The notes under the pieces were generated by a model. It was given only the letters and a program-made list of their open reading frames with translations, was not told the DNA's origin and did no database searches. A stretch of 32,439 nucleotides of DNA from a virus: IMG/VR virus record IMGVR_UViG_3300031999_000125, positions 1 through 32,439 of that record; one strand, given 5' to 3'. Below are positions 25,514 to 31,623 of the stretch, piece by piece (positions within the stretch are counted from its first letter, which is position 1; each line of letters starts with the position of its first letter). A program made the translations under genes and the position numbers.

Positions 25514-27229
25514 TTACCCCTTTCTCCCCGGGGCGACTTCTTTCCCGCCATTCCGGCGTGATTGGAAGGTTCTCCTGATCCGATCACGTACGACGTTTTC
25601 CATATCCTGGTCCAGATCATCTTCGTCTTCCCAGTTGAGCTCCTGTTCGATCCCTTCTACTTCGTCCTCGCTAAGGAATTCGGGCTTGAAACCGCGCCTG
25701 GGCTTCTTCTCCTCCCCCCTTTTCAAGGCCCAGCGCTCGTACTTGTCCAGCTCGATGTCCCGCATCCTCTTCAGAGCCGTCGCCGATCTGGCGAGAACCG
25801 GAGGCATCGCTACCGTCCCACCCTCGGCCACAGGCTGCTGGACCTGAGGCTCCAACAGGACTTCCTCGGGCTTTTTCGGGAAGAGGACGTATCCCGAAGG
25901 CGTCGGGTACCCCGGTGGGAGCCCCAGAGGCTTCTTGCCCTCCTCGATCCTCCATTCATCCACCTGCATGACGCCGCACATGACTTTCGCCTTGTTCGAC
26001 TCCACGATCTTCGCCTGGGTGCGGCCCCTGTCCGTGATCCAGTTCCAGCTCAGCCAGGGCTTCCTCATGTACTTCTTGATGATCTTGTTCATCACCCGCT
26101 CGATGTACATCTTGAGGGCCGCCGCTCCACCTTCCGCCTCGACATCCCCCAACTCTTCGGCCACGGAACGGTTGGTCATGCTGATGAACGGAATCGGGCT
26201 CACTCCGTAGGCAAAGCAACAGACTCGGGCTACCCATTCATCGAACTTGTTGTGGAGGTTGTAGCTCTCTTCCTCCTTGAATTTCTGGAGCGAGGATCCC
26301 TCGGGAGCCCAGAAGATCTTGCTTCGCTGCTGGGCGTTGCCCCGAAGGAGCTCGTCGAAGTACTCCGCAAACTGCTTGATCTTCTCCAGCCCCCACTCCT
26401 TCGGCAGGGTGGCGATCCCCGCCGGGGTGTTCCCGTCCGTCCAGGCCGCCAGATTGTACAGCTCGCGCCGGATCCCCTGGTTGATCGTAATGACAAGCTG
26501 CTCGGTCGGGGAAAATCCGTAGAACTTGTTAACCCGACGGTTGCCGGGGAGATACATCAGCTCCTCCTGGGTGTACCACGTCTTCGGCACCCCGTAGAGG
26601 AACTGTTGATAGGCGGGGTAGGGAGGCATCGGGAGGAAGCCCCGGGTGTCACACAGGACCTTGATGCTCGATCCGTCGATCAGGTCCAGAGAAGCCAGCT
26701 TCCCTCCGTAGGTCATGCGCGGATAGATCGTCACGGCATCCGTAACCAGCCGCTCCTCGACCACCTCGTTGAGCCATTCGATCCATTCGTGCTCCCCGTC
26801 AGGTTTCTCCAGGAATCTCTTGACCTCGGTAATGTCGGCCTCGTAGCTGTTCCCATCCTCCCTGTTCGTGGACACGATGTCCCATTCGTGCGCCTGAAGA
26901 GAGGTCTTGAGGTGCTCGATGATCACCCGGACGATGGTGTACTCGGCCAGCCCCCGAAGCTGGGCGAAGTTGATCGCCTCGGTGCTTCGGGGCGAGATCT
27001 GGATGTTGAACCCGGGCGGATACTGCCAGCGACGGGGAGGCGTCCCATCCGGATCCTTCGGAGTGAGAGGCAGGCCACCGGAGAGCCAAGGGTCCTGGCC
27101 GACGAAGACCTCCTGGTGCCCCGGCTTCTCCACAGCTCCGACGGGACTAAAGTTATTCGGAGACCGTGGTCGCTGGAGAGCCTGCGTCATGCGCCCCAGG
27201 GCGTTACCGATGGATTCCATCAGAGTCAT
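25514..27229 (-). CDS. Portal protein
   Basis: 571 residues. Recognised by the early helical/crown region YTIVRVIIEHLKTSLQAHEW, the wing VVEERLVTDAVTIYPRMTYG, the FYGFSPTEQLVITINQGIRR helix, and the downstream KFKEEESYNLHNKFDEW stem region, in line with HK97/PBSX-type portals. The C-terminus is long and acidic (NWEDEDDLDQDMENVVRDRI). Portals form the dodecameric ring through which DNA is packaged. The start overlaps the terminase stop by four bases (ATGA), so the two are translationally coupled. Confidence 0.88.
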   Translation of the reverse strand: MTLMESIGNALGRMTQALQRPRSPNNFSPVGAVEKPGHQEVFVGQDPWLSGGLPLTPKDPDGTPPRRWQYPPGFNIQISPRSTEAINFAQLRGLAEYTIVRVIIEHLKTSLQAHEWDIVSTNREDGNSYEADITEVKRFLEKPDGEHEWIEWLNEVVEERLVTDAVTIYPRMTYGGKLASLDLIDGSSIKVLCDTRGFLPMPPYPAYQQFLYGVPKTWYTQEELMYLPGNRRVNKFYGFSPTEQLVITINQGIRRELYNLAAWTDGNTPAGIATLPKEWGLEKIKQFAEYFDELLRGNAQQRSKIFWAPEGSSLQKFKEEESYNLHNKFDEWVARVCCFAYGVSPIPFISMTNRSVAEELGDVEAEGGAAALKMYIERVMNKIIKKYMRKPWLSWNWITDRGRTQAKIVESNKAKVMCGVMQVDEWRIEEGKKPLGLPPGYPTPSGYVLFPKKPEEVLLEPQVQQPVAEGGTVAMPPVLARSATALKRMRDIELDKYERWALKRGEEKKPRRGFKPEFLSEDEVEGIEQELNWEDEDDLDQDMENVVRDRIRRTFQSRRNGGKEVAPGRKG

Positions 27230-30200
27230 CGCGTCACCTCAGTCAACGGCGTTTTCACCACGGCCTCGGAAAGCTTTCCTGGAGACCGCCCTGCCACGGA
27301 AATCTCTTCCCGATTCTTACGAGCAAGCTGGCCGACGTACTCGAACAGGCCCGCTCCCGGCTCCCCGGAGGATTCCAATCCGAAGGCCATCCCATCCTCC
27401 ATGGCCGCCAGGGCCAAGGCGTCTGCCCGGTCGGGGGAATATCCCAGGCGTTCCCGGGTTCGGCTCTTCTCCTCCAGTTGGATCTGGCCCTTGGAGGTCA
27501 TCCTGCTCTTCAGAACCGAAAGGTCCCTGGCCAGCCGGGAATCTTGGGGGCTGATCTTGATACGACCCTCCCGGAACCGTTCCCGAAGGCCCCAGAACAT
27601 CTCGGTTCGGGCGTTGAAGAGGGTCTCCGGGTCCGTGGACCTCTTCCCGAAGTTGATAGCCACGATCTCATGTTTCAATTCGCGGAGACGGTCAGAAACA
27701 CCACCGTTGTGCGTCCATAGGATTCTACCACTCTTCAGCCTGCAAAAGATGAGCCGCGATGGCGAATTCACAGACAGGTAATAGACATCCCCGATTCTTC
27801 TGATGATCTTTTCGAGAGGGAGCGTCCTGGAACATCCATGCCATTCGGCTACGCGCCAGTTGTCAGCCTTCCGTGTGATGATCCTTCCGTCGATCTTCCC
27901 GGTGCTTCCTTGCGCACAATGGAGGCGGATGGTTCCATAATGCCCAGTCTTGAAGAGCAACAGTTGAAGGTCATCCCTGAGGAACACACTCGATGTCGAA
28001 TAGTTCCTAGCACCCTTGTGAAGCAATCCATCCCCCTTCAGGAACTCGTTGAGGAAGATGTTTATCATTTCTGGGGTCGCCAGATGTACTACCTGTGGAG
28101 CCCTCTTCCTGTAGACCCCACGCCCATCTCCGGGCGAATAGCAGTTCTCCTTGAGCCAACATACCAACGGCATATTCCAGACCTTGTAGCAGTATTCCCT
28201 GCCACCGCTCAGGGTACGATTGAACCTCAGCCCGCATTCCAACAAGGCGGACTCGATGTCTTCATTCCACCGCGAATCCTTCGACTGGGAGATCCCGATG
28301 TACTCCTGTCTTCCACTCGTTGCAACAAATCCTTCCGACAGGAACCAGCCCAGGAAACGCATCAATCCGGCCCCAGACATCTTCTGTTCAGGATACGCCT
28401 CCTTAACGCCTCCATGCGGCATCTTGATCCGACGGGCTGGAAATAGAAGCTCGGGATGCCTGCCTTCCCATGGAAATTCCACGTCCAGATAGCATTCTCT
28501 TCTCGATATGACAGTACACCACGAATTCAATTGCCAGGGCTGTTCCGGACGCGCCTTGTGCGGCACAAGATGGGTGGCGCTGAACTCGTAGCCCCCACTC
28601 TCTAGAATCTCCACGCCTTCGCGTTTGTCAACAGAGGCTACGGTCCCCAAGGCAACCTTTCCACGCTCATCCTTCGAGTATATGAGATCGCCCTTCTTGA
28701 TATCTTCGACTTTCTTCCACCCCGACTCACAAAGCACTTCCGTTCCGGGCACCAGACACCCGAGTCCGGTGTCGTCGATCCTCACCCGCCGGGCCGGGAT
28801 GCCGCCGTTAATGCGCTTAGCGATCTCCCCCACCGTCTGCATCAGATCCTGGCCTTGGACATCGTGGACGCATCGGAAAACGTCTCCCGTACCCTGGTAG
28901 AAGACCGTGTGGTCTCCTCCCTGCCGGGCGATATCACACCCCAGCGTGTTGTTGGAAACTTCGTTGGAAGTCTCATCGGCCTTGAAGGCCTCCTGAGCCC
29001 GTTCGATCCATCCCAGGGGGATCAGGGTATCCGCGACGTCCGTGGGGAAGATCCCTTCCACGCGGGCCTGCCACATCGGAGAACCCTCGCTGTAGGTCTG
29101 ACGGATGTCCTCGATGTACTCTTTCGAGCAGTAGGAGCTCTTCCGGCTGTCCAGCGTGAAGTTCGCGTATTGCCCCCGCTGGGAGGTGAAGGCAGCGTAG
29201 AACGGGCTCTCCGGGACAAAGATGGCGTTGCCGATCAACAGGAGCTTGGCGTTCGGAGCCGACAGGAGGGATTCGATGCCGGGCCATATCCTAGGATCGA
29301 TGCCCTGGGCCTCGGTGACCACGACCAGCACATTCTCGGAGTGAAGACCCTGGAAGCTCGAATCGTCCCTGGCCGTGAACCCGATCATGTAGTTCTTCTC
29401 ATCCTCGGGATCACGGAGCATGGATTCGACCGGCAGGAGCTGGCCTCCCAGGGGACACCGGGCCTTACGATAGGCCGCCCTGATCTCCCCCCATACGATG
29501 TGCTGAACCTGCCGGTCGGTCGGACCCGTCGTCACCACGATCGAGGGCTGATGGACGATCTTGTACCAGAGGGCCAGCCGGGCAGCCAGGAAGTCCTTTC
29601 CGCTATTGCGGAGGACCATGAAATCGGCACCGAGGATGCGATGATTGCCGTCCACGGTGAAGCCGTAGTAGTCGCCTTCGCCGAGGTTTTCGATGCTCTT
29701 GATCCCTACGTGGGAGGGATTGTGATTCACGAGAACAGATCTCTTGGTCGTCGCCTTCCTCTTGACGTGACAGGGGATCTCGGGAACTCCGCTGATGTAG
29801 ACACGCCAGTACGTCCCTTCTACATGATGCCCCGTTTTGAAAGTCGTCGAAACGAATTTCGGTCTCATCGTAGCCCGGCCACCCAAGGAACGCACAAGCG
29901 TCATGATCTGCTCGCTCAGGGATTTCCGTTTCTGGACCAGATCGTACGCCCCGCTACAACTGGCGCTTCCATCCGTATCGAGCAATCCGGCCAGAAGCTC
30001 CAAACGCTGCCCCCGAGATGACGTCATGTAGTCCCTGGGAATATGCTTGTTCTTGAACACACCGAGGGATCTCAGGAGAGCCAGCCACGGATTTGGAAAG
30101 TGACTTCCCACCCCGCGCAAACGGCCATTCGTCATCAGCCAGTTGCGTCCATTCTTCATGGGACGGAACTCGCACCCGATGGAATCGGCGTAACGGCTCA

Positions 30201-30804
30201 ACTCGCCGATGATCTCCGGTTCGGTAGCGGCGAAATCCGAGGTGCTCTCACATCCGTCGCCGAGCCATACGCCGAGGAGGTACGGCGGGATGGGCAGATA
30301 TTTCTTCGAGTACTCGACGCCCACCCTGAAGCCTCCGTGCCTCCGACGCTTCTCCCTGCACCAGGCCATGAAATCCCGTACCGAAATCTCCGCGACGTCA
30401 CCCGTCTTGTAGACATAGTGACTGGCCATGGCCACCAGGCACAGGACGTGGGATTCATTGTGAACGTACTGAGTGCCGTCGGTGTAGGTGATTCGGTACA
30501 TGGTCTCGCGGCCCCTGGTCAGACCGTGGACCGTGCGGGGCTTGCCGTCGTCCCCCATCAGGACGTCGCCGCCCCTGATCTCCTCCACGGATTTCTCGGT
30601 TCCATCGTACATGAGGAAGCGGGTCCCGAGCCCGAAGCAGGCGTGACCGCTTTTCACGGCAATCTTGCGGTGATAGGGGAACTCCTCGACAAGGGGAATC
30701 TGTTGGGCGTCCAGCGTCTCCCCCAGTATCTCCTCGATGAAGTACCGGGGGGAAGCTGTCACCTGACGGATGATGGCCAGGTCTTCCGGCTTGGGCTCGT
30801 TCAC
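27226..30804 (-). CDS. terL: Terminase large subunit interrupted by two inteins
   Basis: 1192 residues encoded, of which 496 are extein. The GTG start overlaps the upstream stop as GTGA. Extein landmarks: a Walker A loop SGHA|SGKD split by intein 1 after residue 55; VVVTEAQGID as Walker B (Thr497-Glu498, with Thr in place of the usual Asp); LGCDIARQGGDH with nuclease Asp624; RIDDTGLG with Asp677/678; and SPDRADALALA with Asp1125 and Asp1128. The protein is the ATP-driven packaging motor and headful or cos nuclease. Intein 2 lies between residues 682 and 1034. After removal of both inteins the length is normal for the family. Both splice sites depart from consensus at the C-terminal end (see inteins). 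Confidence 0.93.
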   Translation of the reverse strand: MNEPKPEDLAIIRQVTASPRYFIEEILGETLDAQQIPLVEEFPYHRKIAVKSGHACFGLGTRFLMYDGTEKSVEEIRGGDVLMGDDGKPRTVHGLTRGRETMYRITYTDGTQYVHNESHVLCLVAMASHYVYKTGDVAEISVRDFMAWCREKRRRHGGFRVGVEYSKKYLPIPPYLLGVWLGDGCESTSDFAATEPEIIGELSRYADSIGCEFRPMKNGRNWLMTNGRLRGVGSHFPNPWLALLRSLGVFKNKHIPRDYMTSSRGQRLELLAGLLDTDGSASCSGAYDLVQKRKSLSEQIMTLVRSLGGRATMRPKFVSTTFKTGHHVEGTYWRVYISGVPEIPCHVKRKATTKRSVLVNHNPSHVGIKSIENLGEGDYYGFTVDGNHRILGADFMVLRNSGKDFLAARLALWYKIVHQPSIVVTTGPTDRQVQHIVWGEIRAAYRKARCPLGGQLLPVESMLRDPEDEKNYMIGFTARDDSSFQGLHSENVLVVVTEAQGIDPRIWPGIESLLSAPNAKLLLIGNAIFVPESPFYAAFTSQRGQYANFTLDSRKSSYCSKEYIEDIRQTYSEGSPMWQARVEGIFPTDVADTLIPLGWIERAQEAFKADETSNEVSNNTLGCDIARQGGDHTVFYQGTGDVFRCVHDVQGQDLMQTVGEIAKRINGGIPARRVRIDDTGLGCLVPGTEVLCESGWKKVEDIKKGDLIYSKDERGKVALGTVASVDKREGVEILESGGYEFSATHLVPHKARPEQPWQLNSWCTVISRRECYLDVEFPWEGRHPELLFPARRIKMPHGGVKEAYPEQKMSGAGLMRFLGWFLSEGFVATSGRQEYIGISQSKDSRWNEDIESALLECGLRFNRTLSGGREYCYKVWNMPLVCWLKENCYSPGDGRGVYRKRAPQVVHLATPEMINIFLNEFLKGDGLLHKGARNYSTSSVFLRDDLQLLLFKTGHYGTIRLHCAQGSTGKIDGRIITRKADNWRVAEWHGCSRTLPLEKIIRRIGDVYYLSVNSPSRLIFCRLKSGRILWTHNGGVSDRLRELKHEIVAINFGKRSTDPETLFNARTEMFWGLRERFREGRIKISPQDSRLARDLSVLKSRMTSKGQIQLEEKSRTRERLGYSPDRADALALAAMEDGMAFGLESSGEPGAGLFEYVGQLARKNREEISVAGRSPGKLSEAVVKTPLTEVTR
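27706..28758 (-). other. Intein 2 (351 residues) inside the nuclease domain, with LAGLIDADG-type endonuclease
   Basis: Residues 683-1033. It starts Cys683 (CLVPGTEVLCESGWKKVEDI) and contains the block B-like SATHLVP. The endonuclease motifs are FLGWFLSEG (about 817-825) and NEFLKGDGLL (about 919-928). It ends with VYYLSVNSP (block F-like) and ILWTHN. The normal His-Asn end is present, but the next residue is Gly1034, not the Cys, Ser or Thr needed for ordinary splicing. Joining the flanks gives DDTGLG-GGVSDRL, an intact terminase nuclease motif. Confidence 0.88.
29605..30639 (-). other. Intein 1 (345 residues) inside the ATPase P-loop, with LAGLIDADG endonuclease
   Basis: Residues 56-400 of the precursor. 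It starts with Cys56 (CFGLGTRFLM, block A) and has a block B-like NESHVLCLV. The two endonuclease motifs are YLLGVWLGDGC (about 175-185) and LELLAGLLDTDGS (about 268-280). It ends GNHRILGADFMVLRN with Asn400, followed by extein Ser401. The penultimate residue is Arg (codon CGC) where His is normal. Removal restores GHASGKD, the Walker A loop. The homing endonuclease appears intact by motif. Confidence 0.9.
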
Positions 30805-31109
30805 GGAACTACAATCCTCCCCTCGGAAGACGCACCGATCTGTTGCGCCTGGAGCTTATCCCTCATCTGGCGACCCTGCTCGACGCAGAACGGGCAGAGA
30901 GCCAGGAAGTTGGGGCCCTGCCGCTTCACCACGCAGGCGATGAGAGATCCCCGGGACGAATGAAGCGGGCAGACGATGAAGATCCGGCTCGATCCTAGGA
31001 AACCTGGGCCTGTTCGCTGATTCCGGGAGCCTCCGGAGATTCCAAAACCACCAGGGGTTCCTTCGGTACCGGGTCTTCTCTCTTGGGACTCTCCTTCCGA
31101 CCCTGCCAT
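30801..31109 (-). CDS. Zinc-ribbon protein overlapping the small terminase gene
   Basis: 102 residues from an ATG with GGAGG eight bases upstream, which is the reason for choosing a start that lies 115 bases inside the terminase small subunit gene in another frame. The first ~40 residues are low-complexity Gly/Arg/Ser, as expected for a frame forced by the overlap. The folded part has CPLH, then a single Cys, then CPFC (FIVCPLHSSRG...LALCPFCVEQG), a probable zinc site. The stop overlaps the terminase GTG start. Not assigned to a family; proximity suggests a packaging accessory. Confidence 0.65.
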   Translation of the reverse strand: MAGSEGESQERRPGTEGTPGGFGISGGSRNQRTGPGFLGSSRIFIVCPLHSSRGSLIACVVKRQGPNFLALCPFCVEQGRQMRDKLQAQQIGASSEGRIVVP

Positions 31110-31591
31110 TCCTGAACCCTCCGAGCTATGTCCATCAGCGTCTGTTCCATCCGGTCGTCGTGCTTCTCCACCGGAAGCTGGAACAGGCCTTCGATCTTCG
31201 CCAGCCGCTCCAGTTGCTTCCCCGCCGTTTCCAGGGCCAGGGAAATCACCCTGGGATTCACCTTGTCTTTGATGGCCATCAGCTCCTGGATATGCTCCAG
31301 GGCCTTGTCCTTCAGCTCGATGATCTCCTGGTAGGTCTTGTTGGCGTGGGCCTTTCGGTCGACCTGGGATTCCAGGATCATGTCCCGGACGTAGGGATCC
31401 CTCAGGAGGAGGCTGCCACGCTTCCCGGCACTGGTGGGGGAATATCCGGCATCCCGGGCCGCCTTCGAGGCGTTGCCGTGCACCAGGTAGGAGTCTACGA
31501 ACCGCTTCTTCCGAAGCACCATGGGAAGGGTGACATACTTCCGCTTGAGACCCGGGGGCTTCTGCTCTTCTGGAGGCCTATTCTCGCCCAT
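30995..31591 (-). CDS. terS: Terminase small subunit
   Basis: 198 residues from the ATG at 31591; a TTG six bases upstream is possible. The DNA-binding helix-turn-helix region reads RFVDSYLVHGNASKAARDAG followed by YSPTSAGKRGSLLLRDPYVR, a strong match to the Terminase_2 pattern. A helical oligomerisation section follows (QEIIELKDKALEHIQELMAI), then a proline-rich tail. It recognises the packaging start and loads the large subunit encoded downstream. The C-terminal coding region is shared with the start of the zinc-ribbon gene in another frame. Confidence 0.88.
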   Translation of the reverse strand: MGENRPPEEQKPPGLKRKYVTLPMVLRKKRFVDSYLVHGNASKAARDAGYSPTSAGKRGSLLLRDPYVRDMILESQVDRKAHANKTYQEIIELKDKALEHIQELMAIKDKVNPRVISLALETAGKQLERLAKIEGLFQLPVEKHDDRMEQTLMDIARRVQEWQGRKESPKREDPVPKEPLVVLESPEAPGISEQAQVS

Positions 31592-31623
31592 AAACAAGAG
31601 TATGCAGTCTTAGAGGAGCTGAA

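Follow-up and report, generated by a model that had tools for sequence, protein, structure and literature searches.

The interrupted terminase gene and its insertion site

The sequence studied here (hereafter the window) comes from IMG/VR, where it is a virus record 32,439 bases long. Its terminase large subunit (TerL) gene occupies 27226..30804 on the minus strand, and encodes a precursor of 1192 amino acids, with a GTG start, matches to PHROG terminase large subunits, and two inteins. No stop codon falls in the TerL frame across all 1192 codons, and because the gene adjoins those for the portal protein (25514-27229), which comes next, and the small terminase (30995-31597), which comes before, we regard it as a genuine packaging gene. 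Intein 1 (29605..30639, minus strand; 345 amino acids) lies in the Walker A motif of the ATPase domain, matches the Pfam families Hom_end_hint and LAGLIDADG_3, and is bounded by KSGHA/CFGLGTRF and VLRN/SGKD, with an ordinary +1 Ser; an Arg takes the place of the His that would precede its final Asn. The middle extein (28759..29604, minus strand) supplies the remaining ATPase domain and the first half of the nuclease domain, ending in RIDDTGLG, and the C-extein (27226..27705, minus strand) supplies the second nuclease half, starting with GGVSDRL. Between these lies intein 2 (27706..28758, minus strand), which comprises 351 codons, CLVPGTEV...ILWTHN, and is followed by Gly1034. The initial annotation had read the codon at 27705-27703 as GGT and the +1 residue as this glycine, and was correct in both coordinates and residue number (27703..27705, minus strand). 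Of the two inteins in this TerL, then, only the first is followed by a conventional +1 residue.

In intein 2 a LAGLIDADG endonuclease is inserted into a HINT splicing domain. Reading along the minus strand, we located Cys1 (28756..28758), the block B His, His63 (28570..28572), the two LAGLIDADG motifs FLGWFLSEG (28330..28356) and FLNEFLKGDG (28027..28056), Tyr327 at block F position 4 (F:4; 27778..27780), and the block G end His350-Asn351 (27706..27711). HINT and LAGLIDADG matches are weak by sequence profile, as is the match to Pfam Hint_2, and the top match of the HINT part in a PDB profile search was the Clostridium thermocellum BIL domain 2lwy (C. thermocellum BIL, E 0.009). An AlphaFold model built from 16 homologues (pLDDT 87.4) was matched best by Foldseek to the LAGLIDADG-bearing inteins TliVMA (7qsu), PhoVMA (7qss) and PI-SceI, and BIL domains were matched too. 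With its HINT fold and blocks A, B, F and G, intein 2 is a complete HINT and LAGLIDADG intein by fold, anatomy and, as described below, mobility.

The insertion splits the terminase nuclease loop D-x-x-G-x-G/G-G. In L107, the closest relative with no intein here (identity approximately 58% in the nuclease domain), the junction region reads RVRIDDTGLGGGVTDRLREL, and this continuity establishes that the boundary is right and the insertion precise, as had been proposed from the intact flanks RIDDTGLG and GGVSDRL. The insert is in frame, and the site is empty in L107 and 69 other homologues. Their motif is D-x-x-G-x-G-[G/A]-G. At the +1 position, 46 of these 70 terminases have Gly, 23 have Ala and one has Ser, although the Gly share is inflated because a preference for GGG was built into one of the two search patterns. 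As 69 of the 70 intein-free proteins carry Gly or Ala here, glycine is the native residue. The one exception (L142, IGSG) indicates that Ser has been tolerated at least once. L107 itself carries a different intein in its TerL frame (874 amino acids), at a third TerL site, with the junctions VVVTGP/CFDDKTEIL and WSGN/TDRQV and a +1 Thr.

The counterpart in Sf6 gp2 of the first Asp of DDTGLG, Asp677 (28774..28776, minus strand), is by alignment the Asp of DGDGVGAG, at chain residue 316. If the tag is 20 residues long, this is presumably D296 in gene numbering, which we take to be a catalytic acid of the nuclease active site. Modelled without the intein, the nuclease domain (pLDDT 93.7) finds structural matches in the terminase nucleases of E217, Sf6 and G20c; the first Asp closes a strand in this model, and the next helix begins at the junction. 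The active site of the G20c terminase is built from several loops, L0-L3 (PMC5389553), of which L1 may be the equivalent of the intein 2 junction.

A mobile intein clade with an invariant +1 glycine

Homologous inteins were sought chiefly among the uncultivated phages of IMG/VR, the database scanned at depth. Two DNA patterns applied to viral contigs recovered nine TerL inteins at this site, seven through a pattern that required +1 Gly, and is therefore biased, and two through an N-terminal pattern that is blind to +1. An alignment-based scan keyed to the endonuclease motif, and likewise blind to +1, returned 15 clade loci with profile scores >370 bits, seven of them new, and every one of the 15 has +1 Gly. 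The inteins at the site number 17 in total, including that of the window and one partial copy (the near-identical inteins of L037 and L038 are both counted), and all have +1 Gly. They are 32-40% identical to the window intein, and GGT, GGC, GGA and GGG are all represented among their +1 codons. To judge from these sequences, the sharing of both a His-Asn end and a +1 Gly by 16 further inteins is far more than chance would produce. One TerL frame (L034, 1155 amino acids) apparently contains two inteins, one of them of this clade, as two profile matches fall in a single frame; another locus (L031:1697-1702) is the sole member with a +2 Ala (HN/GAV), and still has Asp at F:4.

Sensitivity depended on the query: a single-protein scan of viral contigs with the window intein gave no matches, and an alignment query was needed. 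A pattern for the Ala version of the site (HN/AG) gave 12 matches, none of them a TerL intein. Isolated phages yielded no clade member, only distant inteins elsewhere, for example in Gordonia phage GMA6, a Lak phage and an uncultured 484 kb phage, and one scan of prokaryote genome contigs yielded just six distant matches at 22-30% identity. The next relatives in the +1-blind scan (<170 bits) occupy other sites, and the 17 for which boundaries were taken have +1 Ser (13), Cys (3) or Thr (1). Distant relatives (L044-L089) form a large set of phage inteins that end W-S-G-N before Ser or Cys, at many sites in TerL and other proteins, and in which Gly replaces the usual penultimate His.

When 15 Gly and 17 Ser/Cys/Thr inteins are placed in a maximum-likelihood tree, the two groups are split with 100/100 support, so that +1 is Gly in 15/15 of a monophyletic clade versus Ser, Cys or Thr in all 17 relatives. 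Two further positions divide along the same line. The penultimate residue (G:6) is His throughout the clade (15/15) versus Gly or Ser in 17/17 relatives, and the Asp or Cys found at F:4 in 16/17 of the +1-nucleophile relatives persists in only 1/15 clade members, having been lost in the other 14 (F:4 residues in the clade are N, Y, E, S, D and F). The association of +1 Gly, F:4 and G:6 lies on a single branch of the tree, and counts statistically as one event. Three residues, P66, R70 and W80, are jointly invariant in the Gly clade only. Cys1 is present in every full-length member, the block B His and terminal His-Asn are invariant, and all members carry the LAGLIDADG endonuclease, with FLGW[FY]xSEG and FLxxFxxGDG conserved. 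A search of blocks A, B, F and G for an alternative nucleophile found none: Cys1 is the only Cys, Ser or Thr in these blocks that every member shares.

The clade has moved recently. The inteins of L029 and L030 are 97.7% identical in DNA sequence, and identity drops abruptly to 88% and 85% in the flanks; synonymous divergence (dS) is 0.04-0.12 in the intein versus 0.92 in the extein, with an intein dN/dS of approximately 0.16. Such a pattern marks a Gly+1 intein that has recently homed from one host to another. Both HINT and endonuclease parts are under purifying selection, and the G+C content of the intein is usually below that of its host gene. The motifs of the LAGLIDADG domain are intact and transfer is horizontal into a fixed site, as in homing inteins, with endonuclease activity predicted from the motifs. 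No second, uninterrupted terL nuclease was found in the seven records checked, which are fragments and may be incomplete.

A putative amine route and its rivals

Splicing of classes 1, 2 and 3 proceeds in every case through a branched intermediate on the side chain of a +1 Cys, Ser or Thr, which glycine cannot form. The initial annotation was thus right that ordinary splicing is impossible here, as the class 1 attack by a +1 side chain has no counterpart with Gly. Of the outcomes it then offered, a variant mechanism has become the better supported, and cleavage at the intein ends stands as the chief rival, though not the favoured reading. The clade probably rejoins its host protein by a different chemical step. 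Specifically, we consider it somewhat more probable than its alternatives combined that these mobile inteins, having entered the TerL nuclease at a catalytic loop whose own +1 residue is Gly or Ala, adapted to the site by splicing through an amine route that requires no +1 nucleophile. Cys1, assisted by the block B His, would convert the Gly(-1)-Cys1 peptide bond into a thioester; cyclisation of Asn351, aided by His350, would then release the C-extein with an unhindered Gly as its new N-terminus; and, with the nuclease halves held together by co-folding, the alpha-amine of that Gly would attack the thioester directly. An uninterrupted DDTGLG-GGV loop would be regenerated in one step, with no branched intermediate. 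We infer the ligation itself, and the order of these steps, from sequence.

All of the catalytic residues needed for such a route (Cys1, the block B His and His-Asn) are clade-invariant, and the changes at F:4 and G:6 make chemical sense in the same light. In class 1 inteins, Asp F:4 has been proposed to take the proton from the +1 nucleophile (PMC4031507), and His G:6 is one of the residues proposed to aid Asn cyclisation; the presence of this His in 15/15 members together with the loss of F:4 is as expected if Asn cyclises without a branched intermediate. There is also a precedent in type A BILs, which lack a +1 nucleophile, and for which ligation has been proposed to occur via the free amine of the C-terminal fragment acting on the N-terminal thioester (PMC4031507). 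Because cleavage products predominate when type A BILs act (PMC4031507, PMC7664689), the amine route may be inefficient. In one BIL, a nucleophile placed at +1 is reported to raise splicing sharply. The TerL clade may be tuned for amine chemistry, given that the active-site loop of an essential enzyme must be restored, and that the Gly amine would be unhindered and held in place by the co-folding halves.

The same BIL behaviour lends itself to a second reading, in which the intein is cut out and no ligation follows. Hydrolysis of the thioester, together with cyclisation of Asn, would release it and leave one chain bearing the ATPase and half of the nuclease, and a separate C-terminal half-nuclease, which would associate as a non-covalent split TerL. 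BIL domains without a +1 nucleophile mainly cleave (PMC7664689), and cleavage at both ends would require precisely the residues present, Cys1 and His-Asn. The cut would, however, fall within the catalytic loop, some six residues past the active-site Asp, where the junction GxG/GG is as conserved as in intein-free proteins even as its codons vary, and seamless repair is favoured by the fact that the element has been kept, and has spread, in a gene that packaging cannot do without. We therefore hold cleavage alone to be unlikely, albeit a serious contender. Further behind is a class 3-like prospect, in which an internal residue of the intein would take over the acyl group as a second carrier and then pass it on to the Gly amine. 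Class 3 inteins prove that block F residues can take over such a role (PMC7664689, PMC7765530), and the clade-specific invariance of P66, R70 and W80 could be read in its favour; yet Cys1 is invariant, which makes class 3 inapplicable, F:4 is variable and not Cys, and the HINT blocks offer no other invariant nucleophile, leaving this reading improbable. That the intein is dead or decaying, and TerL non-functional in these genomes, might be supposed because class 1 splicing should stop when the +1 nucleophile is missing, but the 17 stop-free frames, the evidence of purifying selection, the intact LAGLIDADG motifs and the recent passage from host to host render it very improbable indeed. Lastly, the suspicion that a sequence error, assembly error or population variant at 27703-27705 had altered a codon one base away from Ser or Cys is refuted by the +1 Gly of every homologous intein, in independent assemblies and with four codons, and by the Gly or Ala of empty sites; homologues with a normal +1 residue, named beforehand as evidence for such an error, were searched for among the inteins of the site and did not appear (16 of 16 have Gly).

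Other interpretations of the locus were considered and rejected. A shifted boundary that recruits a downstream Ser or Thr finds no conserved nucleophile, as +4 is Ser or Thr in some members and Ile, Val or Leu in others. An RNA intron is incompatible with an insert that is a single open frame with HINT blocks in every member.

A conserved and mobile clade with +1 Gly carries one of two implications: either splicing can be seamless in the absence of a nucleophilic side chain, or the nuclease of a phage terminase functions after being cut in two, and either would be notable. For a direct test of which holds, nature offers at least 15 diverse sequences in this clade. Should a Gly+1 intein ligate well, it may find use in protein engineering, since the joint would leave only Gly, and no Cys or Ser.

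Comparison with known inteins and BIL domains

No published description of +1 Gly inteins was found in the open-access literature. TerL inteins have been reported in the Mic1 cyanophage, in phiCbK and in the crAss-like Delta group, and Mic1 resembles the window in carrying one in the ATPase domain and one in the nuclease domain. The extein boundaries of Mic1 are Thr and Cys and that of phiCbK is Ser, and +1 Gly is reported for none of the three. The class 1 LAGLIDADG inteins, such as TliVMA (7qsu) and PI-SceI, share with the clade a HINT domain with an inserted LAGLIDADG endonuclease, Cys1, the block B His, a His-Asn end, precise insertion in a conserved active-site motif, and mobility. The clade has the Cys1 or Ser1 expected of class 1, but in place of a +1 Cys, Ser or Thr has Gly in the window and 16 homologues, and has lost the F:4 Asp or Cys, such that the transesterification step is unavailable to it. 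A class 2 mechanism (Ala1 with a +1 Cys) is likewise rejected, as intein 2 has Cys1 and +1 Gly. Class 3 inteins are similar in their phage origin and variant splicing chemistry, but lack Cys1 or Ser1 and rely on Cys F:4 within a Trp-Cys-Thr motif, whereas the clade retains Cys1 and its F:4 is not Cys; a class 3 mechanism is rejected on these grounds.

Outside the canonical classes, the HINT domain of Tetrahymena BUBL1 BIL2 (6y75), which is also a fold match, joins its N-terminal flank to an amine rather than to a +1 side chain (PMC8616854), but does so through an isopeptide bond to Lys, at a eukaryotic ubiquitin-like locus, and has no endonuclease. Type A BILs, represented by the C. thermocellum BIL (2lwy), are like the clade in having no +1 nucleophile and a His-Asn end. 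They differ in residing in variable regions of non-conserved bacterial proteins (PMC7765530) and in mainly cleaving, whereas the clade is confined to a single position in the TerL nuclease, keeps its LAGLIDADG motifs intact and shows signs of homing. By analogy, the clade may work like a type A BIL, with ligation as we propose, while differing from BILs in setting and mobility. Lacking the +1 nucleophile of class 1 and the features of classes 2 and 3, and distinct from BILs, it belongs to no named class. We give about even weight to the broader proposal that these elements could constitute a fourth mechanistic kind: true homing inteins that would splice efficiently within an essential phage enzyme, with Asn cyclisation preceding ligation by the backbone amine of a glycine.
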